Part shown: piece by piece, positions 17,155-51,573 of the stretch
Layout of the letters: each line of letters opens with the position of its first letter
How positions within the stretch are numbered: the first letter of the stretch is position 1
Translations under genes and position numbers: made by a program
Origin: Dehalococcoidia bacterium
GTDB lineage: Bacteria; Chloroflexota; Dehalococcoidia; DSTF01; JACRBR01
Length of the DNA: 64,000 nt
Direction of reading: 5' to 3'
Assembly (NCBI GenBank): GCA_040902535.1
Contig: JBBDXD010000001.1
Coordinates: 62,001-126,000, forward strand
Notes under the pieces: generated by a model
The model's input: only the letters and a program-made list of their open reading frames with translations
Databases searched by the model: none
Told to the model about the DNA's origin: nothing

Positions 17155-18119
17155 GCGGCCGCCTTGAAGGACGCACGGCGATCGTCACCGGCGCCGGTCG
17201 CGGCATCGGCCGTGGCGTGGCGATGCTGCTCGCCGAAGAAGGCGCGAACGTCGTGGTCAACGACTTTGGCGTGAACGTCGACGGTACCAAGCCCGACAGC
17301 GGCCCCGCGGCGGTGGTGGCCGACGAGATTCGCGCGAAGGGCGGCAAGGCCGTCCCCAACTTCGACACCGTCGCGACGATGGACGGCGGCGAGGCGATCA
17401 TCAAGACCGCGCTCGACAGCTTCGGCCGCGTCGACATCCTGATCAACGTCGCCGGCATCCTGCGCGACCGCATGATTTTCAACATGAGCGAGCAGGAGTG
17501 GGACGATGTCATCGCCGTCCACCTCAAGGGTCACTTCGCGACGACGAAGCCGGCGTCGATCCTGATGCGTCAGCAGCGCTCCGGCCGCATCATCAACTTC
17601 TCGTCCGTCTCCGGTCTCGGCGGTCTGCCCGGACAGGCGAACTACGGTGCCGCGAAGGCGGGCATCGCCGGCTTCACGCGCGTCGTCGCGCGCGATCTCG
17701 GACGCTACGGCGTCACCTGCAACGCGATCGCGCCCGGCGCCGCGACGCGCATGACGGCGACGGTCCCCGCGAACACGGCGCAACTGCGACAGCGCGCCGG
17801 CACCGCGCCCGTCGTCCAGCAGCCACGGCAGTCGTCTGTGCCGCCGATGCGCGAACCGGAGTACGTCGCGCCGATGACGGTCTTCCTCGCGACGGACGCC
17901 GCCTGGAACATCAACGGCAAGATCTTCTACGTCGCCGGCGGCCGCATCTCGCTCGCGCACGAAGAGGCGGCGTACCGCCAGATCCAGAAAGACGGCATGT
18001 GGACCATCGATGAGCTGCGCGAGATGGTGCCGTCGCAACTCACCAACGGCGTGCAGAACCCAGCTCCACCACCGCCCGATCTCGATCTGCCAGGACGACC
18101 GGTCGCCGCGACGGCCTAG
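17151..18119 (+). CDS. SDR family 3-hydroxyacyl-CoA dehydrogenase-like oxidoreductase, second copy
   Basis: 322 residues, starting at an ATG that overlaps the TGA of the preceding gene and follows GCAGGAGG. Motifs are VTGAGRGIGRGVAM, NVAGILRDRMIFNM (Val for the second Asn of NNAG), NFSSVSGLGG and NYGAAKAG. It is a tandem paralog of 16165-17154 and keeps the same Pro-rich tail ending in PDLDLPGRP. It probably oxidises the 3-hydroxyacyl-CoA made by the MaoC pairs. Two hydratase pairs and two dehydrogenases in one transcript suggest matched sets for two substrate types. Confidence 0.9.
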   Translation: MSGRLEGRTAIVTGAGRGIGRGVAMLLAEEGANVVVNDFGVNVDGTKPDSGPAAVVADEIRAKGGKAVPNFDTVATMDGGEAIIKTALDSFGRVDILINVAGILRDRMIFNMSEQEWDDVIAVHLKGHFATTKPASILMRQQRSGRIINFSSVSGLGGLPGQANYGAAKAGIAGFTRVVARDLGRYGVTCNAIAPGAATRMTATVPANTAQLRQRAGTAPVVQQPRQSSVPPMREPEYVAPMTVFLATDAAWNINGKIFYVAGGRISLAHEEAAYRQIQKDGMWTIDELREMVPSQLTNGVQNPAPPPPDLDLPGRPVAATA

Positions 18120-31290: not shown

Positions 31291-31367
31291 GGCCCCGTGG
31301 TGTAGCGGTCTAACATGCCACCCTGTCACGGTGGAGATCGAGGGTTCGAATCCCTTCGGGGTCGCCA
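31291..31367 (+). tRNA. tRNA-Asp (anticodon GTC)
   Basis: 77 bases with CCA encoded. Acceptor GGCCCCG pairs with CGGGGTC (one G-T), discriminator G. The anticodon stem CCACC/GGTGG encloses CTGTCAC with anticodon GTC. The T arm is GAGGG-TTCGAAT-CCCTT. The D arm lies in TGGTGTAGCGGTCTAACATG. The 3' end of this gene recurs four times in the next 4 kb, so it is an integration hot spot. Confidence 0.96.
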
Positions 31368-31504
31368 CTATCACACTTCCCATCGGCTCCGGGTCGTCGG
31401 CCACGGGCGTGCCGTACCTACGCGCCCTACTGCGCTACCGTCCGTTTCGCATGAGGCATCGCACGCCGTTGTCTAGCTCGGTTGGCGGATGTAGGCTGCG
31501 CCCG

Positions 31505-32848
31505 ATGGATCAACAGATCCGCTTCTGTACGACCAGCGACGGCGTGTGCATCGCGTACTCCGCTGTGGGTCAGGGACCGCCGCTGGTGAAGGCGGCAAAC
31601 TGGCTCACGCATTTGGAGTTTGACTGGGAGAGTCCCGTTTGGCGACACCTCTTCAGCGCGCTGGCAGAGAACCACACGCTGGTGCGCTACGACGAACGGG
31701 GCACGGGGCTATCGGATCGTCAGGTCGACGAGATCTCGCTGGAAGGACTCGTCCGCGACCTCGAGGCGGTGGTTGATACGCTCGGCCTCGAGCGCTTCGC
31801 GCTCCTCGGCATCTCTCAGGGCGGCCCGACGGCGATGCAATATGCAGTGACTCATCCCGAGCGCGTTAGCCACCTCGTTCTTTACGGCTCATTCGCTCAC
31901 GTCGGAGCGGATGAGCGCGGTGCCGCGCTCGCAAGCGCGATGCGCGTAGGTTGGGGCCAGGACAATCCAGCGTTTAGGCAGCTTTTCACTACCCTCTTCA
32001 TCCCGGGTGCCAACGGCGAGCAGATGGCCTGGTTCAACGAGCTCGAACGCGTTTCCGCCTCCCCGGAGACGGCGGCCAGGGTTCTGGAATCAATTGGCCA
32101 AATCGACGTGCGCAATATCCTGCCGGACCTACAGGCGCCAACGATTGTCATTCACCCTAAAAAAGACGCGGCGGTGTTCTTCGAGCGTGGGCGCGAGATG
32201 GCGGCACTCATCCCCGGGGCGCGCTTCGTGCCCATGGAAGGCAGTAACCACTACATCCTCGAACAAGAGCCGGAGTTTGAGACGTTCCTCGACTTGCTCG
32301 AAGGATTCCTCGGGCATAAAGCCGTGCGATTACGCGCGAATCGCGGCGCGCCCGTGACCGTCATGTTCACCGATCTCGTCGGTCACACGGAGATGATGCA
32401 GCGGCTGGGCGACGAAAGGGGACGGGAAGTGCTCCGAGAGCACGAGCGGATGACGCGCGACGCGCTGAAGCAGTACGGCGGGACCGAGATCAAGACGGAT
32501 GGCGACAGTTTCATGGTGTCGTTCGGCAGCGTCACGGCCGGGGTGGACTGCGCGATCGCGCTCCAGCGCGCGTTTGCGGCGCGCAACGAAGGTGGGGGCG
32601 AAGCGCTGCACGTACGCATCGGCCTCAACGCTGGGGAACCGGTGGAGGAGGAAGGCGATCTGTTCGGTTCGTCGGTCATCCTGGCGGCGCGGGTGGCGGC
32701 GAAGGCTTCTGCGGGCGAGATCCTCATTCCGGAACCGCTGCGGCATCTGCTCTCCGGCAAGACCTACGTCCATGCCGACCGCGGGGAGACGCTGCTCAAG
32801 GGCTTCGAGGATGCTGTGCGGTTGTACGAAGTGCGCTGGCAGTCGTAG
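31505..32848 (+). CDS. Alpha/beta hydrolase-class III nucleotide cyclase fusion
   Basis: 447 residues from the ATG at 31505; the frame is open back through the tRNA but is not coding there. Residues 1-265 are an alpha/beta hydrolase: the nucleophile elbow is LLGISQGGPTAMQYA, the acid is probably in HPKKDAAVFF, and the His is in GSNHYILE. Residues 280-447 are a class III adenylate/guanylate cyclase domain: VTVMFTDLVGHTEMM with the first metal Asp, EIKTDGDSFMVSF with the second, and the transition-state Asn/Arg region in LFGSSVILAARVAAKA (Asn replaced by Ile-Leu). Such fusions are common in actinobacteria and Chloroflexota; the hydrolase may sense a small molecule and tune the cyclase. First gene after tRNA-Asp. 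Confidence 0.9.
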   Translation: MDQQIRFCTTSDGVCIAYSAVGQGPPLVKAANWLTHLEFDWESPVWRHLFSALAENHTLVRYDERGTGLSDRQVDEISLEGLVRDLEAVVDTLGLERFALLGISQGGPTAMQYAVTHPERVSHLVLYGSFAHVGADERGAALASAMRVGWGQDNPAFRQLFTTLFIPGANGEQMAWFNELERVSASPETAARVLESIGQIDVRNILPDLQAPTIVIHPKKDAAVFFERGREMAALIPGARFVPMEGSNHYILEQEPEFETFLDLLEGFLGHKAVRLRANRGAPVTVMFTDLVGHTEMMQRLGDERGREVLREHERMTRDALKQYGGTEIKTDGDSFMVSFGSVTAGVDCAIALQRAFAARNEGGGEALHVRIGLNAGEPVEEEGDLFGSSVILAARVAAKASAGEILIPEPLRHLLSGKTYVHADRGETLLKGFEDAVRLYEVRWQS

Positions 32849-32866
32849 GGACGACCCTCACAACAG

Positions 32867-32942
32867 TGATGCCCCACCGCCTCAGTCTCGGGTCAATCTT
32901 CGTGTGTCTTCGACGGCCCCCGTTCCCCTTCTGGGGTCGCCA
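32867..32942 (+). repeat. tRNA-Asp-derived repeat, copy 1
   Basis: 76 bases starting TGATGCCCC and ending CTGGGGTCGCCA. It shares with copies at 33544 and 35112 the order TGATGCCCC, a TCAG/GGGTCAA block, GTGTCTTCGACGGCCCC and the tRNA-like tail. This copy has two single-base inserts in the tail (CCCCTTCT for CCCTTC). Confidence 0.85.
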
Positions 32943-32956
32943 GTTCACAACATGAA

Positions 32957-32980
32957 AACCGGCCCCGAATGCGGCCGGTT
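32957..32980. terminator. Bidirectional hairpin between cyclase and VOC genes
   Basis: AACCGGCC / GGCCGGTT, an 8-bp stem with an 8-base loop, flanked by GTGTTTG on one side and TTCATG on the other strand. It lies between two convergent genes. Confidence 0.55.
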
Positions 32981-33028
32981 GTGTTTGACGACCGCGGCGA
33001 CACGCGTTGGGTCTGCGCGCGGCTTCGC

Positions 33029-33430
33029 TCAGGCAGGGCCAAGCAAGTCCCATCGGTTGCCCGCGATGTCGACAAAGAGTGCGAACCGACCGTACGCCTC
33101 AGTCCGAGGCGACGACAGAAACTTCACACCAGCCGACACCATGCGTTCGTAAGCCGCGTCGAAGTCGTCGACCCGCAGGAAGAATCCTACCCGCCCGGCT
33201 GTTTGGCTCCCGACGATCGCACGTTGCTGTTCGCCATCCGCTCGCGCGAGAAGGATGCCCGTCTGGGCACTCGGTGGGCGCACGACGACCCACCTTTTGG
33301 GACGCCTATCGTTAGATAGCGACGGTGCATCCTCCACCAAATCGAAGCCGAGCGCATCGACGAAGAAGGCAATCGCGGGGTCGTATTCGTCAACCACGAT
33401 TGCGATGAGTTCCAGAAACGGCACGGCCAC
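33029..33430 (-). CDS. VOC (glyoxalase/bleomycin-resistance) family protein
   Basis: 133 residues from a GTG at 33430 (AAGGTG upstream; another GTG is two codons on). The beta-alpha-beta-beta-beta fold is visible twice: ELIAIVVDEYDPAIAFFVDA with LGFDLVED, and VGFFLRVDDFDAAYERMVSA with ALFVDIAGNRWDLLGP. The first metal position, usually His/Gln/Glu in L-x-H-V, reads A-I-V, so metal binding is doubtful. It may be a dioxygenase-, epimerase- or antibiotic-binding-like protein. Single gene between repeat copies 1 and 2, on the opposite strand to the tRNA. Confidence 0.85.
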   Translation of the reverse strand: MAVPFLELIAIVVDEYDPAIAFFVDALGFDLVEDAPSLSNDRRPKRWVVVRPPSAQTGILLARADGEQQRAIVGSQTAGRVGFFLRVDDFDAAYERMVSAGVKFLSSPRTEAYGRFALFVDIAGNRWDLLGPA

Positions 33431-33543
33431 AGCACACCTTAGCGTCGCTTCGTCTACCAACAATGCCCTTCCACACGTCCGAGCTTTGGAGCGATGAACG
33501 CCGCCGTTCGTCGCTCATCGCGGCGCCCGCGTAGGAACGACTT

Positions 33544-33622
33544 TGATGCCCCATCGTTTAAGCCTGGGTCAACCTTCGCTCGCTTGTGTCTTCGACGGCC
33601 CCCGTTCCCTTCGGGGTCGCCA
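33544..33622 (+). repeat. tRNA-Asp-derived repeat, copy 2
   Basis: 79 bases: TGATGCCCC, AGCCTGGGTCAACCTTCG, TGTGTCTTCGACGGCCCCCG, then TTCCCTTCGGGGTCGCCA. The last 17 bases equal the tRNA-Asp 3' end, and the GGCCCC before them equals the 5' acceptor strand. It lies between the start of the VOC gene and the stop of the RibD-like gene. Confidence 0.9.
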
Positions 33623-33655
33623 CTCCATACACACGGGGACCGGCGCACCGGCAGA

Positions 33656-34300
33656 TCAGCGCTTGGCGATGACCACGTGCGTCGCCTTCGCCGTCGCGGT
33701 GTGTTCAGTCCGCTCGTAGCCCAACGACGGCAGGTCGATACCCGTCAGCAGGTGCTCACCGGCGCCCAACAAAACGGGTGAGATCGCGAGGTGCATCTCG
33801 TCGATCAGTCCAGCTTCGAGATACTGCCTGATCGTGCTGACGCCGCCGCCGACAAGAATGTCGCGCCCACCTGCGGCTTCGCGCGCCTGTTCGAGCGCTG
33901 ACTGAACGCCGTCTGTTACGAAGTAGAACGTCGTGCCACCATCCATCTCAATCGGGCCATGCGTGTAGTGCGTGAGGACGAACACGGGCACGTGGTACGG
34001 TGGGTTGTCACCCCACCAGCCCTTCCAGCTTTCGTCTGTCCACGGACCGCGGACCGGACCGAACATGTTCCGACCCATGATCCACGCCCCGACATTCGCG
34101 AATCCTCGCGCAGCGAGATCGTCATCAATACCGGACGTGCCGTCCTCTCCGCCGTGCATGCGCTGAAAAGTGCGCGTCGGGACGAACCACTCGTGTAGCC
34201 CTTCGCCTCCGGAACCGAGCGGCTGCTCGACGCTCTGGTCAGCGCCGGCACCGTATCCATCCAGTGAAATCGAAAATGATGTCACGCGGACCTTCGTCAT
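33656..34300 (-). CDS. Dihydrofolate reductase-like / RibD C-terminal family protein
   Basis: 214 residues from the ATG at 34300 (AGAGGTG upstream). The start MTKVRVTSFSISLDGYGAG, then WIMGRNMFGPVRGP, FYFVTDGVQSALEQAREAAG and ILVGGGVSTIRQYLEAGLID, fits the RibD_C/DHFR fold of NADPH-dependent reductases often called deaminase/reductase. The second Gly-rich block binds NADPH. Not part of a riboflavin operon, so the substrate is unknown. Single gene between repeat copies 2 and 3. Confidence 0.88.
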   Translation of the reverse strand: MTKVRVTSFSISLDGYGAGADQSVEQPLGSGGEGLHEWFVPTRTFQRMHGGEDGTSGIDDDLAARGFANVGAWIMGRNMFGPVRGPWTDESWKGWWGDNPPYHVPVFVLTHYTHGPIEMDGGTTFYFVTDGVQSALEQAREAAGGRDILVGGGVSTIRQYLEAGLIDEMHLAISPVLLGAGEHLLTGIDLPSLGYERTEHTATAKATHVVIAKR

Positions 34301-34494
34301 CCAACACCTCTTCATCAGCTTCGGCTGCCAGATCACCACAATCGATCCTACACGCACACGGGCCTTTGCCTCATCGCAGGCCGCATCCGCGTCGGAGGTA
34401 CGGCGACACTTGCAGCGGGAAGCACCGGGACGACCGTCATGCGCCATCGGCGTATGCGGGGGTCGTCAGGCTCGCCGGAGTGTTGCTGGTAGCC

Positions 34495-34515
34495 CGAATC
34501 CCTTCGGGGTCGCCA
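34495..34515 (+). repeat. Exact 21-bp copy of the tRNA-Asp 3' end (copy 3)
   Basis: Identical to 31347-31367, from CGAATCCC to the encoded CCA. The bases before it do not resemble the tRNA or the longer repeats. This is the form an attachment site takes after integration into a tRNA gene. Confidence 0.9.
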
Positions 34516-34569
34516 GCCTCTTCTCGCAGCAACGAAGCTTCACGGCGCTGTTTGCCTGGACTTGCTGAG

Positions 34570-35013
34570 TTAATCAGCAAGCCAACGGCCGTCCACCATC
34601 ACTGAGCGATCGTCGTCCTCCTCCCGCCAGGCATGAATCGTACGTGGCGTGAGCCGGATATAGATGTTCCTGCCTGAACGTCTGGCATCGAACCCAGCTG
34701 CCTCGGTGTGTGCATCAGCTAATGCATCGTCCGCGTCAGTCTCGACGAACTCCAACGTCCCCTCGATGATGACAACGTCTCTCGTGGGCGGCAACGCCAT
34801 GCGGGCAACGCCTGCACGACGAAGGTTCCGAGCGGTCTTGCTTCGCTTCGGGGTGGCCAACGTTAGGCGAGAGCCGTCCCAGAAAAAGGACAGCGGGATC
34901 AAGTACGCATCGCCTTGTTCGCTCGCTGACGCAACCCAGATGTCTTTTTCCGTACCGGGCACCATGCGCAGCTGCTCCAGCACATCTGCCTTCCGCTGTG
35001 CAGGGCTTCTCAT
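34570..35013 (-). CDS. Pyridoxamine 5'-phosphate oxidase-like FMN/F420-binding protein
   Basis: 147 residues from the ATG at 35013 (GGTGGA upstream). The split-barrel fold shows in DIWVASASEQGDAYLIPLSF, then LTLATPKRSKTARNLRRAGV, VVIIEGTLEFVETD and YIRLTPRTIHAWREED. This is the TIGR03618/F420-type PNPOx-like family, whose members reduce small compounds with F420 or FMN; the cofactor cannot be decided here. Single gene between repeat copies 3 and 4. Confidence 0.85.
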   Translation of the reverse strand: MRSPAQRKADVLEQLRMVPGTEKDIWVASASEQGDAYLIPLSFFWDGSRLTLATPKRSKTARNLRRAGVARMALPPTRDVVIIEGTLEFVETDADDALADAHTEAAGFDARRSGRNIYIRLTPRTIHAWREEDDDRSVMVDGRWLAD

Positions 35014-35111
35014 GCTTCCACCGATTTTTCTGTACTGGCACTCACTCTCAGCCGGAGTTTGACAGCCGCCATTGTAGGCTATGCCCGAGAGGGTGTTGAG
35101 CAGAACCACCG

Positions 35112-35188
35112 TGATGCCCCGGTGCTTCAGCCTCGGTCAATCTTGGGCCGTTGTGTCTTCGACGGCCCCGTTCCCTTCGGGGTCGCCA
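35112..35188 (+). repeat. tRNA-Asp-derived repeat, copy 4
   Basis: 77 bases: TGATGCCCCGGTGCTTCAG, CCTCGGTCAATCTTGG, GTGTCTTCGACGGCCCCG, then TTCCCTTCGGGGTCGCCA. Here the two tRNA acceptor strands (GGCCCCG and CGGGGTC) stand exactly seven bases apart and can form a 7-bp hairpin, followed by G-CCA as in the tRNA. Confidence 0.9.
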
Positions 35189-35229
35189 GCTTCATACTCC
35201 GCCCGAGCACCTTCAAAGTCGCTACCACC

Positions 35230-35590
35230 TCAATCGATCGTCGGTTCATTCGCCGTCGGGCCAGTGCGCCGCGCATACCAGCCGGGCGCGAATGCGATGC
35301 TGGCGAGGGACAACAGCACGATCACGCCACCACCGACCGGGAAGAGCCCAATTCCAATAATGAGTGCAACGCAGAGTCCAGCGACACGCTTGAGCTTCGC
35401 GCGAACACGGTCGCCGCCAACGCGATTAAGGCCATCAAGGCGAGCATGAAACTCACCACGTAGATGGTGCCGAGGGCATCCATGCCAAGTCCGTCTGCGA
35501 CGGCGTTGACGAGGCCAACGACCACCGCCGCTGCCGCAGCGAGGTGGGCAATCTTCCGGACGACTTCGATCCGTCGTGGAGCCGCGACCG
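35230..35590 (-). pseudogene. Frameshifted small membrane protein
   Basis: Two overlapping minus-strand frames together give one plausible protein with about four hydrophobic segments: IAHLAAAAAVVVGLVNAVAD and IYVVSFMLALMALIALAATV in one frame, then KLKRVAGLCVALIIGIGLFP and GGVIVLLSLASIAFAPGWYA in the other. The switch is a single base near 35400-35405. No proper start codon is seen for the first part. It follows repeat copy 4 as the genes above follow theirs, but is broken. Function unknown. Confidence 0.45.
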
Positions 35591-36411: not shown

Positions 36412-36549
36412 TGACGAACTCCTTCATCGACGTCGAGAAGGCGCATGGGGCGTCGATGGGCCCTCGCGTTGGTCGGCTGTTTTGAGCTTGGTCACCGAGA
36501 GGATAGTCGATTGATCGATGCGACGCTTGGGGCGGCTTGCGCTAGGCGG

Positions 36550-37040
36550 TCAGCCCAATACCCTTTGCGCCAGCGCCCGCGTGATGCCGAGCGAACGCTC
36601 GTGGTCGATTGGCAGGTCCCAATTGCCGATGAACCGCAGCAGTTCTTCCTTCGTCTCGACGATGCGTTGCTTTGGGTCGTCGAGGTCGCCCCGGAAGCTC
36701 GGCTTCATCGGGTCCTCGCCGTTGAACTCCTCGAAGTACTCAGCAGCCACGGTCTCGACGGCGACGAGTTGCGTCCAGTACGACGCCAGCGCCTCACGTA
36801 TGATGTACGCCACCACGCGCGCGGTCTCCTCGGTCCCATTGGGTTCGTCAGGTAGGTCGCAGTCAGGTCGAAGGGGAGCGTGAACTGGCAGCCCCCGCGT
36901 GTGATCTTCCGGACGAGATCGCGGTTCCGCCGCAGTGCCGCGACCTCGTCGGCGTCCTCGTCGGGATACACGACGTAGCCGCCGAGGCGCGGCTTGCTCT
37001 TCCGCTTTCCGCGTTCGCTCTTGGTGATCGGTTCGGGCAT
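36550..37040 (-). pseudogene. Phage-island protein of unknown function, frameshifted
   Basis: One protein can be read in two frames. From the ATG at 37040 it runs PEPITKSERGKRKSKPRLGG, YVVYPDEDADEVAALRRNRD and TLPFDLTATYLTNPMG. Near 36840 it switches to TEETARVVAYIIREALASYW and continues EYFEEFNGEDPMKPSFRGDL, RFIGNWDLPIDHERSLGITR to a TGA/TAG at 36550. I do not recognise the family. Downstream of the ParB-methyltransferase in the same direction, as in a packaging/head region of a phage or phage-like element. Confidence 0.5.
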
Positions 37041-37352
37041 GCCTCGTCGAGGTAGTTGCCCAAGATCCACAGGTCGCCGGCATGCCGGTGTGTTTCCTCA
37101 AGCCAGTTCAGCCGCAGCTCTGCCTGGGTCACCTGTTCCTTCAGAATCCGCACGCAGTCCGCCAGTTCGCCGTTGACGAAGCGGATGATCGCCATCAACC
37201 GCTCGAACTCTCGCTCGATGCCCGCTGGCACCGGCTGCTCGTAGGGATCGGTCGTCACGCCGTCCTTGAAGTCGTGCAGAAACAGCATCGCCCGCTCGTG
37301 GGCGCGAAGCGCAGGCATCAATCGGTCGAGCCCGCCTGTCTGCCGTCGTCAT
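37022..37352 (-). pseudogene. Short island protein, frameshifted
   Basis: It starts at the ATG overlapping the stop of the ParB-methyltransferase (37352) but the frame changes within ~30 bases to one reading MPALRAHERAMLFLHDFKDG, PYEQPVPAGIEREFERLMAI and RLNWLEETHRHAGDLWILGN, ending near the start of the next gene without its own stop. Mostly helical. Function unknown. Confidence 0.45.
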
Positions 37353-38437
37353 CGCCTCTTCTCCAGCCGCGGACCAAGGGCGCCCTCCACGCGCGACAGC
37401 CGCTCCTCCAGCTCGCCGACTTTCTAACAGCTTGGTCGCCGTCTGCGCCAGGTAGGCGAGCGTGCGGGCGCGAGCGACCTGCGCTTCGGTTTCTTGCCCT
37501 CGACCCAGCCGTAGAAGCAGGCTCGTGCTGCCAGAGGTAGTGGCTGTGCGTCAGCACGCCGTGTTCCTTCGCCCAGATTATCTGCTGGTGCACGAGCAGC
37601 CCCGCCTGCTTCCAGGCTTCCTCGACGAGCGCCTGCCTGCGGCGCGTGCCACTGGTAGATCGCGGCGTTCGGGACCAGGTGCGGCAGCGCGGCTTTGAGG
37701 AACTTTGTGAAGAACTCGACCGCCGCCTCCGGGTCGGTGTAGTCGTCCCAGTGCTTGTCCTTGGTCTTGCGGCTGTTCGTCTTGCTCTGCGGATGGTTGC
37801 CGCCCTGGTAGTCCACGAGATACGGCGGGTCCGTCGCCATGAGTGAAGCCTTCGCCCCGTCGAACAAGCGCTCCACCGCGCCCGTGTCGGTGCTGTCGCC
37901 AATCAGGAGCCGGTGGTCGCCCATGGCCCACAGCTCGCCACGTTGGGCGCGCGGGGCGGAGCGGGCGGCGTCCAGCGCCTGGTCGAGGTCGAACGCTTCG
38001 ACCTGCTCCTTCTTCTCCCGCACGTCCAGAGACCGCAGCAGCTTGTCCAACTCGTCCTCGCTGAAGCCCGAGATCGTGAGATCGACGGACTCGATCGTCG
38101 AAAGGTCCGCGACCATGCGCGCAAGCAGCTCCTCATCCCACGTGCCGCTAATTCGGTTCAGCGCCAAATTCAAGACGCGCGCCTGCTCATGCGTCAGGTC
38201 GAGGTAGATGACCGGCACGTGGGGTGATCCCAGTCGCCGTGCGGCGAGCAGCCGCTGGTGGCCGCCGACCACGCTGTTGTCCTCGCGCCGCGCCAGCATC
38301 GGCTGCACGAAGCCCTACTCGCGCAGGCTGCGCGTCAGCGCCTCCAGTTCGTCGTCGGAGATCCGCCGCGGGTTGGCTGGGTCCGGCTTCAGGTCGTCGA
38401 TCGCGACGTGCTCGATCTGCATCACTGTGGTGTTCAT
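37349..38437 (-). pseudogene. ParB-like nuclease/DNA methyltransferase fusion, broken
   Basis: From the ATG at 38437: EHVAIDDLKPDPANPRRISD, then LEALTRSLRE, an in-frame TAG at 38315-38317 where family members have Tyr, then GFVQPMLARREDNSVVGGHQ (ParB motif). It continues with RISGTWDEELLARMVADLST and the methyltransferase part RLLIGDSTDTGAVERLF, ATDPPYLVDYQGGN (DPPY). Near 37650 the frame shifts to ALVEEAWKQAGLLVHQQIIW, near 37530 back to CFYGWVEGKKPKRR, then once more to end KVGELEERLSRVEGALGP. Such fusions sit beside terminase genes in prophages and methylate phage DNA. With one stop and about three frameshifts it is dead. Confidence 0.8.
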
Positions 38438-38985
38438 GGTGATGACCTCAACATCTCCCGCGGATCGGGCTCTGCCAGCCGTCTGCGGTACTCCTCGATG
38501 CTCTCGACCTGGCGTTGCGCCTCCCGTGGGTCAGGCGGCCGCTCGTGCACGATGCCCGCACGCAGGCGCGCGGTCGGTGACAGGCCAAGTTGCCGCGCCA
38601 ACTCGGTGACGGACTCGTCGGCGTCGCGCCGCAGCAGCCAGATCGGATTCCTCACCAAGTTGTTTTTTTGGCCGCCAATCAGGATCCCGGACTTCTGCAG
38701 CATCCCCTCCAGCTCCACCCAGTCCGACCATGCCGTGCAGTAGCGGATGAGCAGCGCCCGGTCGATCATCGCCAGGGCGCCCATGTCCTCCAGTCTGCGG
38801 CACGACCCGCCGCCATTCGGCCTTCGCCTCCGCCGCGAGGTCAGGCGGCATCTTCGGGCGCGCGACCTGGATGCTGTGGGCGCTCGTCCGCCGGCGGTTG
38901 CGGCGACGCGCGCACGGCTTCGGCAGCGGTCCCGGTCACCCATCACGCGCCTCGGGATACGATCCGGAAAAACCCGTACGGACAA
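38434..38985 (-). pseudogene. P27-type phage terminase small subunit, frameshifted
   Basis: The N-terminal part is readable in one frame (VARPKMPPDLAAEAKAEWRR, then VVP) and the rest in another after about 38800: RLEDMGALAMIDRALLIRYC, TAWSDWVELEGMLQKSGILI, NNLVRNPIWLLRRDADESVT. This is the Terminase_4/P27 pattern (E-W-x-R-V-x-P-x-L ... D ... Y-C-x-A-W). Its stop overlaps the ParB-methyltransferase start, so the order is packaging gene then methylase. No large terminase subunit was found. Confidence 0.75.
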
Positions 38986-39030
38986 AGAGGCGGGTTGCAG
39001 AGCGCCTTCCGGATCGAAATCGTTTTGACT

Positions 39031-39234
39031 TCATTTCGGGGCGCCCCCGCTCACCATCCGCTCCTCGCAACGCACGATTCGGTCATAGCGTCCGCTCATC
39101 GCTGGTTTTTCATCAGTCTGCCTCAGCGCGTCTCCACGGCACTCGTCGCACAGGTTGCTGGCGGGTTTCTCGGGAACACGTGAGCACCGCTTGCACTGCG
39201 GGGTTCCCACCGCATTCGGGGTTGTCCCCCGCAC
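39031..39234 (-). CDS. Small Cys-rich (zinc-finger-like) island ORF
   Basis: 67 residues with CKRCSRV and CDECRGD, two CxxC pairs 14 residues apart, which could bind zinc. Between the primase and the terminase, where phages often keep HNH or zinc-finger genes. No further support. Confidence 0.3.
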   Translation of the reverse strand: MRGTTPNAVGTPQCKRCSRVPEKPASNLCDECRGDALRQTDEKPAMSGRYDRIVRCEERMVSGGAPK

Positions 39235-39357
39235 GTCCCCCGCACCATTTGGGCACCGTCTTTGAATCTACGTGCGGGGGTTGCGGGTATTGCGGGGTTG
39301 AATTGCTACCCTCTGCGCACGCATCGATCTCGACGGCCGTCGCATACATGCGTTTGC

Positions 39358-41911
39358 TCAGGTCGGATCTGACCCCGCATTACCCGCATCTCCCGCATCC
39401 GAATCTGAAATGGGGCCGTTTTTCTGCGGGGTTGATGCGGGGGTGCCGTCGACTTGAGCGTTGTCCCCCGCATCCGGTGGTGCCGCTTGGGCAAGCTCGA
39501 CGTAGCGGGCGGTCTTCGAGTGGCCGTCCCCCTGCTGCGCCTGGCGGATGAACAGATGCTCGAAGCGGTTGTCGCGGCGCGATGCGAGCGCCTTGCCCAG
39601 CTTCGTCCGGATCGTCTTGCCGTCCGCGCCTTCCTTGATGCCGTCGAACCACGGCGTCAGCGTCTCCTCGGCGATCGGCTGAAGGTCGGCAACTTTGACT
39701 GGCGCAGCACCGTGTTCGCCCCACGACGAAGAAGTGAACGCGCGCCACTCCTCGCTGTCGGCGTCTCCGCGGCGATAGAGTTCCGGGCGGTTCTCCAGGA
39801 ACCCGGAGATGCCGGCTGTTTCAAGGATGCCACCGAGCACACGGCACCAGGACTCGTACGAGCCCATCGGCTGCCCCGTCCAGTCGGGCCGCCCGCGCGC
39901 CAGCCAGTGCCGCACCAGCACGAGACACGCCCAGATCACGTCGTGACGATGCCGCTTGAGCCAGCAGACGAGATCAGGGTGTCGGTACGTGCGGCCTTCC
40001 CACGGACGGTCAGTCTTCGCGTCGATCCGGATCGACCCGGCACGGCGCGTGATCTCGTCGCTGAGCGGCAGGTTGTTGCCCGTCACGAGGAAGAGCGTAC
40101 CGGTAACGTCACAGTCCGCGAGAAACCAAGCACCGATCGGTCCAGACGGACGCGGTCAGCAGCGCCGCCAGCGACCCGGAGTCCAGGCGACGACGCACGT
40201 TGTCGAGCAGGACGACGCCGGCGCCCTCCATCAACTTTGTCGTGACGCGCTTCCGGAACTCCTCCTCGTTCTTCGTATCGGCCATCACGGCAACGTCGTA
40301 GCCCGTCGTGACGATCGATACGCACGTCGCGAGGAGACCCTTCCCGTTCCCCGCCTTCGGAGCGTCCAGCGCAAACAGCGGCACAGGGCTTTGAATCAGA
40401 TCTCGCACCATCGGCGTGATCAGTGCGGCGACCATGTTGGCAAGAGAGGCGCGCTCGTCCGCCCAAGGGAAGTCGCCGAACAGATCGTCACCCAGCCGCA
40501 TGCGGGCGACGCGCAGGTCCGTGGCGTCCGGATCGGTTGGCACGTCGGGTACCGGCTGGCCGACAAGTTCGTAGTAGAGGCCCGTCGTGCGCTGATAGCC
40601 AATGCTCGTCTGAAGTTCTCCCGCTGATGTGAAGACAGGCGACGCGATGATCCCTCGAAGCGGCGGCAATGGGATCTCCAGCGCCTCCATGTCCTCGACG
40701 ACGTCGCGTGGCGGGCGCGCGGGCTGTTCGTCGGCCTTCGTGCGCTTGATGAAGTCCGCGCATCGGTCGAGGCGCCCAGACAACCCTGTCGTGCCGAGGT
40801 GCTTGATCACCGCGCCGCCCTCGTCCGGCTTGGCGATCTCCACCACCACGTTGCCATGGCGGAAGAAGCGGACGGGATTGTTCGCCGCAATCAGCGCACT
40901 CCAAGCATCGAAGGCGATGTCGCGTCGATGACGGCCGGAAACGATGATTTTCAGTCGTGCGTGGCCGGGCGCTATCTGATCGTTCGAAAGACGGGGGACG
41001 CTTAGGCCAAGCGCCGCCTTCCAGTCGTGCCAGGTCTTGCCTTGGCCTTCGGGATGGAAACAGTGTCCGGCGTAGGGTCCGTCGGGAAGCTTCTCTGTCC
41101 GACACCGCACTCGAAAGGGCGTCCGTCATCGTGAAAGACACATGGCTGGATGTGGTACCAGGTCACGCCGTGCGCATCGGGAGCCTGCTCTCGGTACTCA
41201 ATTCCCGCCGACCCGAGCATGTCACCCAGATCGCTTGTGCGAGGTACGACAAAGAGCCGACTTCGGGGCCGACCGACCGGGCACGATCTGCTCGAGTTGC
41301 TGGCTCGTCACCGCGACCAACGAGTCAGGAACCGAGACCACTCCCGAACGCCGATGCGGTCGGTCGAGCGTCGCGTCGCCCTTCATCTTTTCGTACCGAT
41401 GACCGCGAGAACGCGCGGCGTTGAACACGCTCGTGTCGACGTGCGCAGCGTCTGTGTTGAAGCGCTCTGCCAACGATTCGAGGACAGCTTTGACGAGCGA
41501 CATCGCAGCAGAGTCGTTGGGAAGGTCGACGCGGTACAACGCGTAGAACCCGTTCCCGGACATGCAGATGACCGGTTCCGGCCAACCAGCGCCCGTCAGA
41601 AATGCCACCACCTCACGGAGCAAGGCTTGAGCCGAGTCGCGCTCTTCAGCCGTGCTGCTGATTCCGCTCGCGCGCGTCGGGTCAACGTCGATGAAGAGGA
41701 ATTCACGTCGCACCACATCGCTGTCGGCAGACGCAGCGGTCGCCCGCGGCTCAATCCGATTCACGGCTCGGGCCAACAGCGATCGGTGTAGACAGGAAGC
41801 GCGTGATGTCATCGGCTTCGTCGCGTCGCGTCTCGACGAACATTGTTCATCCATTACGGATGCCCACTCGCAGGGCGGCGACATCGCATCCCCGCGGGCG
41901 GTCGCTATCAC
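39358..41911 (-). pseudogene. Prim-pol/helicase (phage or plasmid replication protein), multiply frameshifted
   Basis: The archaeo-eukaryotic primase part is in 41222-41860: NRIEPRATAASADSDVVRRE, FLFIDVDPTRASGISSTAEE, PEPVICMSGNGFYALYRVDL. It breaks near 41222 and again near 41110 (EYREQAPDAHGVTWYHIQP to KLPDGPYAGHCFHPEGQGKT). The D5-like helicase part follows: PVPLFALDAPKAGNGKGLLA (Walker A), KLMEGAGVVLLDNVRRRLDS (Walker B). Near 40100-40150 two more single-base losses separate VWTDR, LGFSRTVTLPV and LFLVTGNNLPLSDEITRRAG. The rest is open to a GNAGSDPT end at 39358. Such proteins start replication of phages and integrative plasmids. At least four frame breaks make it nonfunctional. Confidence 0.8.
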
Positions 41912-43314: not shown

Positions 43315-46300
43315 CTGCACTTTCGACCTACCCTCTGCTCCCTGCGAGACGTTGCGAGTCGCCTCAGCTCGCTGCGCCAGCGTGCCGCGCTAGCTGCCGC
43401 CATCCTCGTCGGCGTCGTAGCGAGCGCCTCATCGCCCGCTACTCTTGAGCCGGCGTCACTTCCTCTCATCCCGATCCCTCAGGCACGCTTCACGGTCACG
43501 CAAACCGTCGCCGGGAACGCGCATTCCTGCGCCCTTAACACCACAGGAGCGCTGCGCTGCTGGGGCGCGAACAACGTGGGGCAGCTCGGCGATTTCACGT
43601 CGGCGTCGCGCGAGCGTCCGGTACCGGTCGTCGGGTACGAAACCGGCGGCGTCACCTTCGTGTCGTCGACATCCGACCACACGTGCGCCGTCCTGGCCGA
43701 TACCAGCCTGAAATGCTGGGGAGGAAACGCCTACGGTCAGGTCGGAAATGGCACGAGCGGAAACGCGTGGCTCGGCGCCGTCCCTGTGTGCGAAACCGGC
43801 AGCGGGTTCTTCTGCACCGGCGGCAACGAACTGATCGGCATCGCCAGCGTCGCCACCGGTGACCGCCACACCTGTGCGCTCATGCTCAGCGGGGGCGTCA
43901 AATGCTGGGGCGATAGCTTCTTCGGGCAGATCGGGGACGGCATCAGCGGAACCGCAGCCGGCAGCACGTTGCCTGTGGATGTGCCGGGGCTGTCGTCCGG
44001 CGTCACACACATTAGCGCCGGCGGATTCAACACCTGCGCCATCCTCACCGGCGGCGCGTTGAAGTGCTGGGGAAACAACTACAACGGCCAGCTCGGCATT
44101 GGTACCTTCCCGAACGCCCCGCTCGCGGCCGGAGAAACGTGTCCATCCGCGCCAGAACCAGGCGCGAAATGCCTGTCACGCCCGGCCGACGTCACCGGGT
44201 TGAGCAGCGGCGCGGCAGAGGTCGCCGTGTTCGACACGACGTGCGCGCGAACAACCGGGGGCGCGGCGAAGTGCTGGGGCTATAACGGCAACGGCGAAGT
44301 GGGGTCTGGCGCAGTGACACCCGCGAACCCGGGCGTGCCGATTGGAGTCCCGCCGAATCATCCAGTTGCCATGCCGACAGACGTAGTCGGACTCACCTCC
44401 GGCGTCGATGCCATTGCACAGTCCTGCGCGCTGCTCGCGACAGGCGCGGCGCAATGCTGGGGCGATAATTTCCTCGGTCAGCTTGGCGATGGCTCGTTCA
44501 CTAACAGCGCCACACCGGTTGATGTGACCGGACTTCCCGGCCCCGCCGCGACGGCGCCGTCGGGTGGCGCTCATCGCTGCATCGTGCTCTCCGACGGGCT
44601 GGAAATGTGTTGGGGAAGCAACTCCTCCGGACAGCTCGGCGCGCCCAGCGATATCTGCTACCCCGGATTCCTCAACATCGCCTGCAGCGCATCGCCGCTT
44701 GAGGTGCTGTTTGGCTTCGTCGTCAACACTACCAGCGACGCGTCGGATGCCGGCGTCAACGACCGCATATGCGACACGCTGCCGGCCACCCCCGGGAGGC
44801 AATGCTCGCTGAGAGCCGCGATCGAGCAGGGCAACGCCATCGCCGGCACCGACTACATCCTGTTCGACATCGGCAGCGGGGTGAGGACGATTAGCCCCGC
44901 ATCGTTGCTGCCCGAACTCGTGAGCACGACGCTGATCGATGGGCGCACGCAGGGCGGCTACGCCGGCAAGCCGCTGATCGAGATCGACGGAACCATCGCC
45001 GGCCCCGCAGCGAACGGCCTCGTCCTGATGGCGCGCGGAAGTACCGTGCGCGGACTCGCGATCAACCGGTTCCAGCTCAACGGCCTGTGGTTGCTCGGCG
45101 AGGGCGAACATCTCGTCGAAGCGAACTACATAGGTCTCGACCCCACCGGCGAGCTCGATCAGGGCAACGCCCAATCCGGCATCCGCATCGATTCGCCCGA
45201 CAACGTGGTTGGCCTCTCTGCGGCAGCCTTCGCTGCGGAAGCGCGCAACGTGATCTCGGGCAACGGGATGGATGGCATCGCCATCTTTGGAGCCTTCGCG
45301 AAGAACAACCTCGTGCGCGGCAACTTCATCGGCACCGATGATGACGCCGAGACGGCGATCGCTAACGCTGGCGATGGTGTGGCGATCAGCGGCGCCTCCG
45401 AAAACGAGATCGGGCATCACGACGGCGGGATCGCCACGCGGAGCGTGATCGCCGGCAACACGAGAAACGGCATCTCGATTGTGGGCGCGAGCGCCGTCCT
45501 CAACCGGATCCGCGGCAACCACATCGGCATTACCGATGTGGGCAACACCGCGCTGGGCAACGGCGACAACGGCATCGACGTGCAAAGCCCATTCAACGTC
45601 ATCGGCGGAACCGCCGCGGATCATCGCAACGTGATCGGTGGCAACGGCGAGGACGGCCTTCTCCTGCACAACGCCGCCGATCAGAATCAGATCCTCGGCA
45701 ACCGCATCGGCGTCGGCGTGTCCTCGGAACTGCCACCGCTGCCCAACGGCAGCGGCATCCTCATCTCCGATGCCGAACAGAACATCATCGGCGGCGCTCA
45801 GGACGGTGCCGGCAACCTCCTCGCCGGCAACACCAACTTTGGCCTCGCGATCATCGGCACCGACGCGATCCGCAACCAGGTCTCCGGCAACGATATCGGC
45901 TGGGCGGCCGGCGATACCGTCGGGAACGGCCTGGGTGGCGTTCTGATTCACGACGGATCTGCCAATATCATCGGCGGTCTTCAAGGCGTCGAACCGGGCG
46001 GCACGTGCCAGGGAGACTGCAACAGCATCAGCGACAACGGCGGCGCCGGCGTGATCGTAACTGGGGATGCCGCCACAAACCGCATCCGTGGCAACTCGAT
46101 CTTCCGCAACGCCGGTCTCGGCATCGACCTCGGCCGCGACGGCATCACGTGGGGGGATCCCGGCGATCTCGATGTCGGTCCGAACGCGCTGTTCAACGCG
46201 CCGGAGATCGTCAGCGTCACGTTCTCGGCAAGCACCGTGACGTTCACGGGCACACTCGATACCCAGAACCCCGCGGCCGCCTTCGTTGATGTCTACGCAT

Positions 46301-49300
46301 CCAGCTTCCTCGGCGCTGGCGGGCTCACGGAAGGAACGCGCTACGTCGGATCGACCTCGCCGGACGCCAACGGCAACTGGACCCTGACGACTTCCGTCAC
46401 CCTGTCGGATAGCGACTACTACACGGCAACGGCGAGCGGGCAGTTCGGTCCGACATCGGAATTCTCTCATTGCGTCGATCCCGACGGCGATGGCAGCCCT
46501 GATTCCGACGGCGATGGCCTGTGCGACACCTGGGAGACCCTGGGCATCGACTTCGACGGCGACGAGGTGATCGACCTTCAGTTGTATGACCTCGATCAGG
46601 ATGGCACGGTGCAGGCCGGAGAGCGGGCCGATCCCATGCACAAGGACCTCTTCGTCGAAGCGGACTGGATGGCCCAACACCAGCCGAACTCGCAGGCGCT
46701 TGCCGCCGCCGTCGCATCTTTCGCAGCGGCCCCCGTCGCGAATCCGGATGGCACCACCGGGATCCGGCTGCACGTCCAGCGCGATGAGTTGGCCGCGGCG
46801 CACGCCAGCCTTCTCGCGTTCACGCCTTGCACCAGCGCGGCCGCCGCTGGAAGCGCCGACTTCGATTCGATCAAGTCGGCCAGCTTCGGCACAGCCGCCG
46901 AGCGCGGGAATCCGAAAGTCCTTGGCGCGAAACGTCTGGTCACCCGTTACGCGCTCTTCGCGCACAGCCTGCAAGGCCGAGGCAGCACATCCGGATGCGC
47001 GGAACTTCCCGGCAACGACTTTGTCGTCACCCTCGGTGGCTGGAGTACCGTCGGCGGTCACGCGGTCGGCAGCCCGGATCAGCAGGCCGGGACGTTCATG
47101 CACGAGATGGGGCACACCCTCGACCTGCGCCACGGCGGCGCCACCAGCGTCAACTGCAAGCCCAATTACATCAGCGTGATGAGCTACTCTCGCCAGTTCA
47201 GCAGCCCGACCGGGCGAACGCTCGACTACTCTCGCCTGGCGTTACCGGCACTCAACGAAAACAGCCTGGACGAAAGCGCCGGCATCTCGGGCCTCCCCGG
47301 CGAGATCACGGTCTACGGCCCCATCGACCCGATCGGCCCGCCCGGCGTCCCTGCACCATCCCTGGGCATAATGACCGGCGGCGCCTGGGTGGTGGTCGTG
47401 CCCACCGACGACCCGATCGACTGGAACTTCGATGGCGATACGTCTGACACTGGCGTTGCAAGCGACATCAACCGGATTCGCCTCGGCGGAGGCGGCTGCG
47501 GGTTTGAACTTGACTCGGACGCGGACGGCACCAACGACGCGGAAGTCCTCAGCACCCTGGGCGGCCACGACGACTGGTCAAACATCCGGTACAACTTCCG
47601 CCACAGCCCCGACTTCGCCGATGGCGTGCATCAGACACACGACGAGGATGTCGAGGAGATCACCTTCGAGGAGGCAGCGTCGCTCAGTCCTGACACCGAC
47701 GGCGACGCCCTCGTGGATCTGCTCGACAATTGCCCCAACATCGCCAACCCCGGACAAGAAGACGCCGATGACGACTTCGAGGGCGATGCTTGCGAAGCCG
47801 TGACGCCAACGCCGACGGATACCCCGACGGATACGCCGACACTGACGCCAACACCAACCGCCGTCCCCACGGATACCTCGACGCCCACCAACACTCCGAC
47901 GGCGAGCAACACCCCCACGCCTACGTCCACGCCGAGCAACGGGGTGTTCGTTGTTAACAGCACCGTCGACGCCGTCGACGCCGCGCCGGGCAACGGCGTG
48001 TGTGCTTCTGCGGCGGGCGAGTGCACGTTGCGAGCAGCGGTTATGGAGGCAAACCGGGGCGCAGGCGCCACGCGTGTGATCACCGTCCCAGCAGGCACCT
48101 ACCGACTCACGCTCGGGCCAAACGATCCCGAAGGTGACTTCGCCGAGGACCGCGGCGACCTCGATCTTGGCGGGAGCAAGCAGTTCACCATCATCGGCGC
48201 GGGCATCGATCAGACGATCGTCGATGCCACGGGCTTCTCGCGCGTGTTCGACGTGCGCGGCGGGGCAGAGCTCCGCGGCATGACGCTGCAGAACTCCGGC
48301 GCGCAAGGCATCATCCACCGGCAGAGCGACCACGGGTTACCGATGACGCTCGACCGCGTCCGCGTCACGGGGATCACAGGCGGCGGCTCGGCGGCCGTGT
48401 TGAGCCTGGGCCTGGTCATCGTCAAGGACAGCCGCGTCGAGAACAACGCGGGCGGCGGCTTTGGCCTTTTCTTCACCAACGCGCAGGCCCGGCTCGAGTT
48501 GTACGACAGCACCGTCTCAGGGCACGGCGATACGGGCATTCGCCTCGACCAGAATAAGTCGGCGCTGATTGTCCGCAGCACGATCTCTGACAACGAATCG
48601 AGCGGTGACGGCGGCGGCATTTACAACATCGGCAGCACCGTGACGATCATCGACAGCACGATCAGCGGCAACCGCGCCAGCGGGCGCGGCGGCGGCCTGG
48701 CCAACCTGGGCACCTCGACGATCACCAACAGCACGTTCAGCGGTAATAGCGCCGGCATGGACGGCGGCGCCATCTTCAACGACTACTCCGCCGTCATGAC
48801 GCTCAGCGACTCTACCGTCGTTGCCAACCTCGCCGACGCCGACGGCAATGGCACGGGCGATGGCGGAGGCCTCACGAGTCCCGCGGCAGGTTCCGTCACG
48901 CGGACGATCATCGACGCGAACGGTGATGCGGCGGGAGAAACACCCGACTGCGCGGGCGTATTCACGTCGGGAGGCAACAACCTGATCGGCGATAGCGCCG
49001 GATGCGTGCTGGTCGGAGACGCGGGTTCGAGCGTCCTCGGGACTCCGGCGGGCCTATTTGCGCTCGCCGATAACGGCGGGCCAACGCACACGCACGCCCT
49101 GGCTCCCGCGAGCGCAGCGCTCGATGCCGCGGGAGATGGCTGTCCGCCGGCGGACCAGCGCGGCGCCACGCGCCCGCAGGGGGCGGCCTGCGACATCGGC
49201 GCTTACGAGCGCGATGCCGGCGCACCCGACGTCGCCGATCCTCCGGCTCTTCCGGCGCCAGCCTCACCCGGCGTGATCGCCGTGAACGACTTCGCGGATT

Positions 49301-51573
49301 CGCCTGACGCCGCGCTCAACGGCGTCTGCGCGGACGCGACCGGCGTCTGCACCCTGCGCGCCGCTATCATGGAGGCGAACTTCCAGGCAGGACCGCAGGT
49401 CATCGACCTCCGCGCAGGCACGTTCCTGCTGAGCCGCCCCACTACCGAAAACTTCACGGTGAACGCGTCCGTTGGCGACCTGGATGTCGTCGACGACCTG
49501 TTGGTCCGTGGCGCAGGATCGGGGCAGACGATCATAGACGGCGGCGCTCTCGACCACATCTTCGGCGTCGCCGGGCCGAACGCGGTGCCCTCCATCCCGC
49601 AGGCAGTCATGTTTGAACTGCAGGGCGTCTCCGTTGTGAATGGCGCACCGCACAACCGGGCACCGAACTGCCCATGCCCGGGCCTGCTGGAGCACGTCGG
49701 CCCGGCCAACGGCGGCGGAGGCATTCAGGCGGAATTGACGTCGGTGGTGTCGCTTGTAGACGTGATCGTGAGTGACAACGTCGGCTGGGGGATAAGCGGC
49801 GGGACGATTATCGTTCGAAACAGCGAGGTCAGCAACAACACCCACCAGGGGATCATCGGTACATACAGCACTCTCGGCGTGAGCTTCTCGATCGTGGACA
49901 GCACCGTCTCGAACAATGGGCTTGCCGGTATCGCGTTTAGCAGCTTCGGCTCGAACTCTGCCTTTGTGCGTTCTCGCATCGAAGGGAACGGGGCTTCAGG
50001 GATCTCGCTGACCGGATCCGGGACAGCGTATGTCGTCGACAGCACCATCGCCAACAACTCAGGACAGTCCGGCGGCGGCATCAACAGTAACGTCAACCTC
50101 GTGATTAGCGGCAGCACGATTAGCGGCAACACCGCGCCAACGCCGTTTTCCGGGTTCGGCGGCGGCATTGCCAGTGCTGGCAGCCTCACTATCTTGAACT
50201 CCACCATCAGCGGCAACTCGACGTCGGGCGACGGAGGCGGTCTCAGCGTGAGCACGACCGCGCCCGCGACCGCCGAGCTGATCAACGTCACGATCACCGG
50301 CAACAGCGCCGACAGCGACGCCGACGGCCAGGGGAACGGCGGCGGCATCCGCCACGGCGGCAACCGAACGACCATGCGCAACGTCCTCATCGGCGGCAAC
50401 CGCGACCTCAGCGCGCCCGCATCCGACCCCGACGACGACCTGAACGCCCCGGATTGCGCCGCATCGTTCCAGAGCATTACGTCCGCGGGCCACAACTTGA
50501 TCGCCGATCCCAAGGAGTGCTTCCGCCTCGGCGACGCCGACTCCGATATCACCGGCGTCGACGCTCAGCTCGGGCCGCTCGCCGACAACGGCGGACGCAC
50601 CGAGACGCACTCGTTGCTCGCGGAAAGCCCCGCGGTTGACGCGGGAGCGAACGTTGGGTGCCCGGCGATCGACCAACGCGGCGTCTCGCGGCCCCAGGGC
50701 AGTTCGTGCGACATCGGTGCGTTCGAAGCTGATGGCGTATTTGCCCCCACTGCTACCGCGACGCCCCCGGCAACTGCGACAAGCACGGCGTCGCCCACCG
50801 CGACCGAGACCGCAGTCCCCACCGCGACCGAGACGCCTGAGCCGACCAACACGGCTACACCGACGCCAACAAACACGGGCGTACCGACCGCCACAGACAC
50901 CGCGACCCCGACCGCAACGAACACGGTGATAGCCACGGCCACCAACACGTCGACACCCGCGGCGACGGACACGGCGATAGCGACCGCGACGAACACGCCC
51001 ACGCCGACGGCGACGAACACGGCGAGCGCCACGCCATCGGGCACGCTTACGCCCACGTCTACCGCCACGTTCACGTGGACGCCCAGCCCGACTGCTTCGC
51101 CGACGGAGATTCCCTCCGTCACGCCCATGCCTACCGTTGCCGCGGCGAGCGCGACGCCCACGCGTATGACGACGATGGCGCCCGGGCGCACGGCCACTCC
51201 TCGCGGCACTCAGACGGCGACACGTACGAGGACAGCCGTGCCCACGGCGACGAATACGCCGAAGCCGAAGGCAACGAAGACGACGACCCGCACGAAGACA
51301 GCCGTGCCCACGGCGACGAATACGCCGAAGCCGAAGGCAACGAAGACGATCTCTGGCACGAGCACGCCGAGGCCGAACGATCAAAAGTGCGCCGACGTAA
51401 CGGGCGATGGTCGCGTAACGCTGAAGGACGTGTTGCGCATCGTCGAGCGGCTCGGCTCCGGCGAGGACGAGAAGCGATACGCGCGGAAGTACGACATCAA
51501 CGATGACCGCAAGATCACGGGGTTGGATGTCGCGCTCGCCGTGAAGCAGCTTGGCGAGCGCTGCCGGCAGTAG
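43315..51573 (+). CDS. Giant secreted mosaic protein: RCC1-like repeats, beta-helices, metalloprotease-like motif, Thr/Pro stalks, dockerin
   Basis: About 2750 residues. The first ATG/GTG-type codon in frame is GTG at 43576, but it lies inside the first RCC1 repeat ([20 protein letters not shown]). The frame is open back to a TGA at 43282 and includes a signal peptide ([20 protein letters not shown]). I place the start at CTG 43315, four bases after GGGGGGA. Domains: RCC1-like repeats ~60-465; right-handed beta-helix with [13 protein letters not shown] ~495-940; Ca-binding [20 protein letters not shown] ~1060; zinc protease-like motif [13 protein letters not shown] at ~1263; TSP3-like repeat ~1460; Thr/Pro stalk ~1496-1540; two choice-of-anchor-Q-type beta-helices ([24 protein letters not shown]; each ending DIGAYE/DIGAFE) ~1543-2474; long Thr/Pro stalk ~2476-2687; dockerin with [20 protein letters not shown] and [20 protein letters not shown]. 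Cell-surface or extracellular; function unknown. Confidence 0.85.
51231..51349. repeat. 66-bp direct repeat in the stalk of the giant gene
   Basis: Two copies beginning GACAGCCGTGCCCACGGCGA at 51231 and 51297. About 52 bases are identical and the period is 66 bases (22 residues, [20 protein letters not shown]-like). A recent in-frame duplication. Confidence 0.85.

Follow-up and report, generated by a model that had tools for sequence, protein, structure and literature searches.

The exact 21-bp duplication of a tRNA-Asp 3′ end at positions 34495-34515 of the window (the whole stretch of 64,000 nucleotides of Dehalococcoidia DNA analysed here) is one of a series and not a lone repeat. The intact tRNA-Asp(gtc) gene, located by ARAGORN at 31291-31367 on the + strand, is followed on the same strand by four copies of its own 3′ end, which end at 32942, 33622, 34515, and 35188, and each copy stands behind one gene (AB-hydrolase/cyclase, VOC, RibD-like, and PNPox-like, respectively). 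An identical tRNA-Asp is present in seven genomes of the family including the source genome, and the gene appears to be the target of integration, its 3′ end (31347-31367) forming the attL core. Direct sequence comparison confirmed what an earlier note on this DNA had reported, namely that 31347-31367 and 34495-34515 both read CGAATCCCTTCGGGGTCGCCA between unlike flanks; the note had missed the other core copies at 32927-32942, 33607-33622, and 35173-35188. When as many as 3 mismatches were allowed, the 16-nt core CCCTTCGGGGTCGCCA occurred 6 times, always on the + strand, where 1.43 matches would be expected, and 0 of 100 shuffles reached 6; the match at 34844, lying within the PNPox gene, is taken as chance.

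These copies delimit a row of short inserts behind the tRNA. Insert 1 (31368-32942, 1575 bp, ending in att site w1) carries an AB-hydrolase/adenylate-guanylate cyclase fusion gene (31505-32848, + strand), and insert 2 (32943-33622, 680 bp, ending in w2) a VOC/glyoxalase-family gene (33029-33463, − strand). Insert 3 (33623-34515, 893 bp, ending in w3) holds a RibD_C-domain gene in the ORF 33656-34447 (− strand), which shows 77% identity over 99 aa to a RibD gene behind the array of G001, a relative of the same family, and which probably starts nearer 34300, since the long ORF extends into the att arm. The PNPOx_N-domain gene of insert 4 (34516-35188, 673 bp, ending in w4) lies in the ORF 34570-35109 (− strand), with a probable start nearer 35013, and insert 5 (35189 to approximately 35542) is the truncated start of a membrane-protein insert. 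The four genes are all different, one per insert, with open ORFs and little other sequence. The repeat had earlier been thought to bound one segment of 3.1 kb, a view that did not hold: att copies separate the genes for the cyclase, the VOC protein, and RibD, a further copy stands behind that for PNPox, and the segment reads as three separate inserts in an array continuing beyond 34515. The window inserts have att sites at both ends and are without recombinase or transfer genes of their own; no recombinase was found next to tRNA-Asp within the window, nor an intact cognate (tRNA-Asp-type) recombinase in the source genome. Judged by this content, the units appear to be recombinase-less inserts resembling CIMEs (cis-mobilizable elements). 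Fusions of the AB-hydrolase/cyclase kind recur at L009:2396-3748, L009:10938-12000, and L125:10772-12166, and occur as array inserts and also, on the right-hand side of the hot spot, as a chromosomal gene.

The repeated unit is larger than the core. A repeat finder recovered an element of ~80 nt common to three of the copies, all on the + strand: w1 (32862-32942), which consists of a ~60-nt arm and the tRNA-Asp core with one extra T and whose minus strand reads IDPRLRRWGITVV, and w2 (33539-33622) and w4 (35107-35188), both further placed by a model match and by reading of the frame. Its consensus is GTGATGCCCCACCGCTTCAGCC..GGGTCAATCTT....TTGTGTCTTCGACGGCCCCGTTCCCTTCGGGGTCGCCA. Site w3 (34434-34515, + strand), which contains the exact 21-bp core, has the longest match to the tRNA and the most tRNA-like core but a divergent, type II arm, and its minus strand reads EPDDPRIRRWRMTVVP, frameshifted relative to the core. 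A sequence model was built from w1, w2, and w4 together with three copies on contig C8 of the source genome, and a whole-genome scan with it gave six strong copies, 3 in the window and 3 on C8, each on the + strand of its contig; their E-values of 8e-19 to 3e-23 hold by construction, since all six were used for the model. The same model detects the sites of G001 and G002, none of which went into its building, and scores w3 at 13.5 bits (E 0.22) as a divergent member; a w3-like divergent copy exists in a relative at G001:C33:12471-12491. Matches in the class members G038, G079, and G090 were weak and were judged noise after reading.

All six type-I sites of the source genome carry a derived core-proximal GTTCCC (or near) where the tRNA has GAATCCC, and this shared derived sequence suggests that one att lineage may have been used repeatedly. 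No conserved fold was found in the att arms or the element on either strand, which agrees with a site acting as duplex DNA, and an Rfam search of the element returned only the tRNA itself above cut-off, plus two matches below theirs. Since insert genes occur in both orientations, the elements are more than simple terminators. Right of the cores, no sequence common to the window inserts was found, and a second half-site is not visible there.

Related sites lie at another locus of the source genome. Contig C8 (L009, G000:C8) starts with a tmRNA 3′ core at 36-53, and within L009:36-1024 this core is followed by a damaged/deleted ssrA-type serine recombinase, 69% identical to the ssrA recombinase of G003, and then by att sites of the tRNA-Asp type. 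The ssrA gene of the source genome is at the left end of contig C1 (G000:C1:2-352). The w4 region is duplicated between the two loci: w4 with the stretch 35189-35542 is 97% identical to C8:940-1379 (440 bp), and on C8 the membrane-protein insert extends farther and has an att site at its end. Most simply, the array would have been split when the chromosome was rearranged between the two hot spots, ssrA and tRNA-Asp, the join of C1 and C8 being deduced rather than assembled in a draft that can mislead at repeats.

Comparison with relatives indicates that this DNA is variable. Synteny left of the tRNA (window 23.4-31.2 kb) is found in G002, G003, G005, G006, and G007 and, apart from a short gap beside the tRNA, in G001 as well, whereas directly right of the tRNA nothing is in common with any of these genomes. 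G001 has four att sites on its contig C33, and G002 a single one 1 kb past tRNA-Asp with a single APH-family gene between. The tRNA-Asp gene is intact and without att copies in G003, G005, G006, and G007, the contigs of G005 and G007 stopping 1-2 kb past the tRNA and those of several key relatives breaking near it. In G003, the tRNA is followed after ~7 kb by a gene block common to the post-array DNA, the same block that follows the C8 array in the source genome and the C33 array in G001; the intervening ~7 kb are different DNA, and an exact empty-site allele was not found in the relatives. The search for empty sites that the earlier note had proposed thus came out in part, with tRNA genes free of att copies in four genomes and none joined directly to the sequence after 34515. 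Conservation of the segment as core genome, which the note had named, together with the lack of any empty-site allele, as speaking against insertion, was not seen, as the right flank varies in every family genome compared. Left synteny, unlike the right side, together with presence and absence of the sites, marks the array as variable DNA at a hot spot and not core genome. The same left synteny and varying right flank support site-specific integration at the tRNA 3′ end; the enzyme that the note's wording implies for it, a tyrosine integrase, is probably wrong.

Several neighbouring features of the window deserve mention in their own right. The DNA right of the array (36445-41911) contains mostly minus-strand, apparently frameshifted genes with a phage- or plasmid-like look, among them ParB/methylase-like and primase-like genes judged by eye only; a Pfam search with five of its ORFs gave no match, and the region possibly represents the remains of another integrated element. 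Farther right, at 43576-51573, an ORF of 2665 aa combines RCC1 repeats, right-handed beta-helix stretches, and a C-terminal dockerin domain, with long Thr/Pro-rich linkers, and at 16396-17708 a direct duplication with an offset of 989 bp and several exact runs of at least 18 nt looks like two paralogous tandem modules. On the contig of G001 that carries its array (L080, G001:C33), a KwaB-family gene (Kiwa anti-phage defence, PF16162) and a small gene beside it are located at 10363-11819 between a tyrosine recombinase and the att array; the small gene matched no Pfam family.

A candidate for the inserting enzyme comes from the relatives. Directly after tRNA-Asp and on the opposite strand, G001 encodes a 524-aa large serine recombinase with Resolvase, Recombinase, and Zn-ribbon domains, whose gene reads through the core into the antisense strand of the tRNA and stops there (...EPGDSDSGCGDPEGIRTLDLHRDRVAC, then stop). 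Related recombinases likewise abut and read into tRNA-Asp in G009, of the same order, and G041, of the same class. In many other Dehalococcoidia, recombinase homologues lie at tmRNA, including those of the Dehalococcoides-like G030, with 33-35% identity over the full length. The recombinase tree groups G001 and G009 in one clade (100/100) beside the main tmRNA clade and leaves G041 unplaced. From these recombinases of relatives we infer that the inserting enzyme is likely to be a DsiB-related large serine recombinase and not one of the tyrosine type.

The att arms themselves carry a trace of such an enzyme. In the frame of the recombinase they encode an alternative tail, ...DPRLKRWGITVVPV (three copies in G001, and in G002 and G009). 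Read on the minus strand in the GDPEGIR frame, these arms are open through the core, with the tails GDPEGIRGGCQHKLREIDPRLKRWGITVVPV, GDPEGIRGGCQHLNLNDPRLKRWAIAVVP, GDPEGIRTSSNRTSEPDDPRIRRWHMTVVPV, GESEGIRGRRKHRLPEINPRLKRWGITVVPVG, and GDPEGIRSSSGLTAEWIRALGAIPVIVTPV, the last two followed by a stop, and in G001, G002, and G009 the tails end in VVPV, VVP, or VTPV. Among the seven copies with a readable tail, 126 of 201 differences (63%) fall at third codon positions (permutation p 0.0004), as do 40 of the 66 differences within the four in-frame copies from G001 and G002 (p 0.0014); these p values are rough, since the copies share descent and the choice of the seven was made with the peptide already in view. 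The excess is not significant in the six type-I copies of the source genome alone (p 0.09). The arm tail thus appears to evolve like coding sequence. In the source genome every tail is frameshifted relative to the core or has a stop before it, so these sites may be dead. In the ssrA att arms of Dehalococcoides, VETGE is followed by a similar tail (WLWPERRLEF and variants). At att site 14162 of G001, the 59 bp that follow the core match those following the tRNA at all but one position, and another insert retains the first 27 bp only, followed by cargo; 27 bp is about the size of a serine-integrase half-site. It appears from the tails in the arms that attP lies inside the recombinase gene and that integration swaps the C-terminus of the recombinase.

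When a genome collection was searched for the tail codons, single matches in Phycisphaerae, Rhodobacteraceae (two), Noviherbaspirillum, and Alishewanella were taken as chance, and the scan otherwise matched the known G001 and G002 contigs and L176 (JAJTWZ010000159.1). The latter is filed under a Blastocatellia MAG and matches the G001 att array at 99.98% identity; one of the two MAGs was probably binned wrongly. The idea that the coding tail is part of a viral protein was dropped, as all 6 pattern matches in IMG/VR were assigned on reading to an unrelated protein family or to chance frames.

With good, though not complete, confidence we regard the ~80-nt elements as attR-type sites left by repeated insertion of small elements at the tRNA-Asp 3′ end, most likely by a DsiB-related serine recombinase of the tRNA-Asp branch with attP in the 3′ end of its gene, the inserts having lost the recombinase. 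In the free circle, attP would lie within the 3′ end of the recombinase gene, the gene body running leftward into the core and the arm beyond the core holding the last ~25 codons (...GDPEGIR-core-...IDPRLKRWGITVVPV). By recombining with the tRNA gene, the circle would restore the tRNA; after integration the recombinase gene would end in the antisense strand of the tRNA (...GDPEGIRTLDLHRDRVAC, then stop), and the arm with a core copy would remain at the far end of the insert. Inserts of the source genome would have lost the recombinase gene and retained one cargo gene and the att site, so that movement would be possible only in trans or jointly with neighbours, and such one-gene derivatives would use the same sites. 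The sequences directly show the row of sites with their orientation and gene content, the presence or absence of sites in relatives, the in-frame tail with its codon-like divergence, and recombinases at tRNA-Asp in three relatives; we infer that a serine recombinase would be the catalyst, that circles would form, and that the units may be mobile at present. Insertion at an RNA gene is ordinary in itself; what is unusual is that the DsiB lineage has a second target in tRNA-Asp, that the units hold one gene, and that the last codons of the recombinase lie across the joint.

The main rival history, which overlaps with this one, sees in each att site the end of a former large island that has decayed to one gene, so that the units as such never moved and are immobile. 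It would fit the frameshifted tails throughout the source genome, the truncation of insert 5 at 35542, the 3′ scraps of a tyrosine recombinase gene with which G001 inserts begin, and the remains of an ssrA-type serine recombinase on C8. However, the six type-I sites share the derived GTTCCC-like sequence as if one changed att lineage had spread, four different genes each fill one insert as open ORFs with little else, and one G001 insert retains just the 27-bp right half-site; on balance we consider decay from large islands rather unlikely. That the repeat at 34495 ends a single element of 3.1 kb, as its exact 21-bp core at both ends would invite, is very improbable given two more att sites within and one behind, and given the single-insert spacing in G002.

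As for the enzyme, the main rival is a tyrosine integrase such as the 340-aa Xer-like protein of the G001 island, inserting the units at the tRNA 3′ end. Tyrosine integrases usually target such ends (PMC4383910), an intact gene lies at L080:9344-10366, 2 kb left of the first G001 core, and two 3′ fragments of a related gene stand directly behind G001 cores. We nevertheless find this alternative doubtful: the gene has no close homologue in the source genome (best 35%), nor in G002 or G009 at E 1e-30, its relatives in G004 and G024 lie away from tRNA-Asp, and the arm tail in the frame of a serine recombinase would be left unexplained. Next to the arrays in the window, on C8, and in G002, no tyrosine recombinase was found. 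Units of one gene with a conserved 3′ element of ~80 nt also recall integron cassettes with attC sites, an explanation that we deem scarcely credible, for neither strand shows a conserved hairpin, the core is the end of a tRNA, and none of the 8 tyrosine recombinases checked in the source genome (of 10 PF00589 genes), nor that of G001, reaches the integron-integrase cut-off.

Insertion by a DsiB-related serine recombinase finds its closest counterpart in the DsiB ssrA islands of Dehalococcoides, which lie in tandem downstream of one RNA gene between ~20-bp direct repeats of its 3′ end (McMurdie et al., 2011, PMC3146451). A conserved sequence stands upstream of each repeat, and the integration module is absent from 15 of 31 islands (PMC3146451). 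The dsiB gene overlaps attL with an unclear stop codon, and its full function may require the circle or a 3′ gene fragment next to it (PMC3146451). The present array likewise has tandem units between repeats of an RNA-gene 3′ end and extra conserved sequence beside the repeat, and the tRNA-Asp recombinases of relatives are related over their full length (33-35% identity) and adjoin attL with their 3′ end overlapping the site, although no such gene stands next to tRNA-Asp in the window. The target here, however, is tRNA-Asp and not tmRNA, the ssrA of the source genome lying elsewhere, so the array is a sister kind of the ssrA islands rather than a member. While ssrA islands carry dehalogenase and other genes, the units here measure 0.7-1.6 kb with one gene, and the six-gene integration module is absent from the window inserts. 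In our reading, the missing 3′ fragment postulated for dsiB is to be found in the att arm, in frame and coding-like.

Other systems share single traits with the array. As in CIMEs and tandem accretion, att sites without their own recombinase are stacked at one RNA gene; islands usually called CIMEs are much larger than these units. Like integron cassettes, the array consists of one-gene units each with a 3′ recombination element of ~60-100 nt, but it has no folded attC and no integron integrase, and its core is a tRNA end. In the integration-dependent immunity of mycobacteriophage BPs, attP lies in the repressor gene and the effect of the tail, a degradation tag, has been tested (PMC4557955). 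Here too attP would be inside a coding gene, so that integration alters the C-terminus of the product, the gene concerned being the recombinase itself and not a repressor.

With this array, the kind of mechanism proposed to spread the vinyl-chloride-respiration islands of Dehalococcoides reaches a further RNA gene and further Dehalococcoidia, and very small one-gene units are seen that would be stacked by a DsiB-like mechanism. The array also bears on the question raised in 2011 of where the integrase gene ends, and a distinct form of the integrase in the circle becomes a directly testable idea. It is a tentative suggestion, to which we would give less than even weight, that throughout the lineage, in both the tRNA-Asp and the tmRNA branches, attP lies within the recombinase gene, the C-termini of circle and integrated forms differ, and the swap regulates direction or activity; if true, a switch responding to the state of integration would be built into the integrase.
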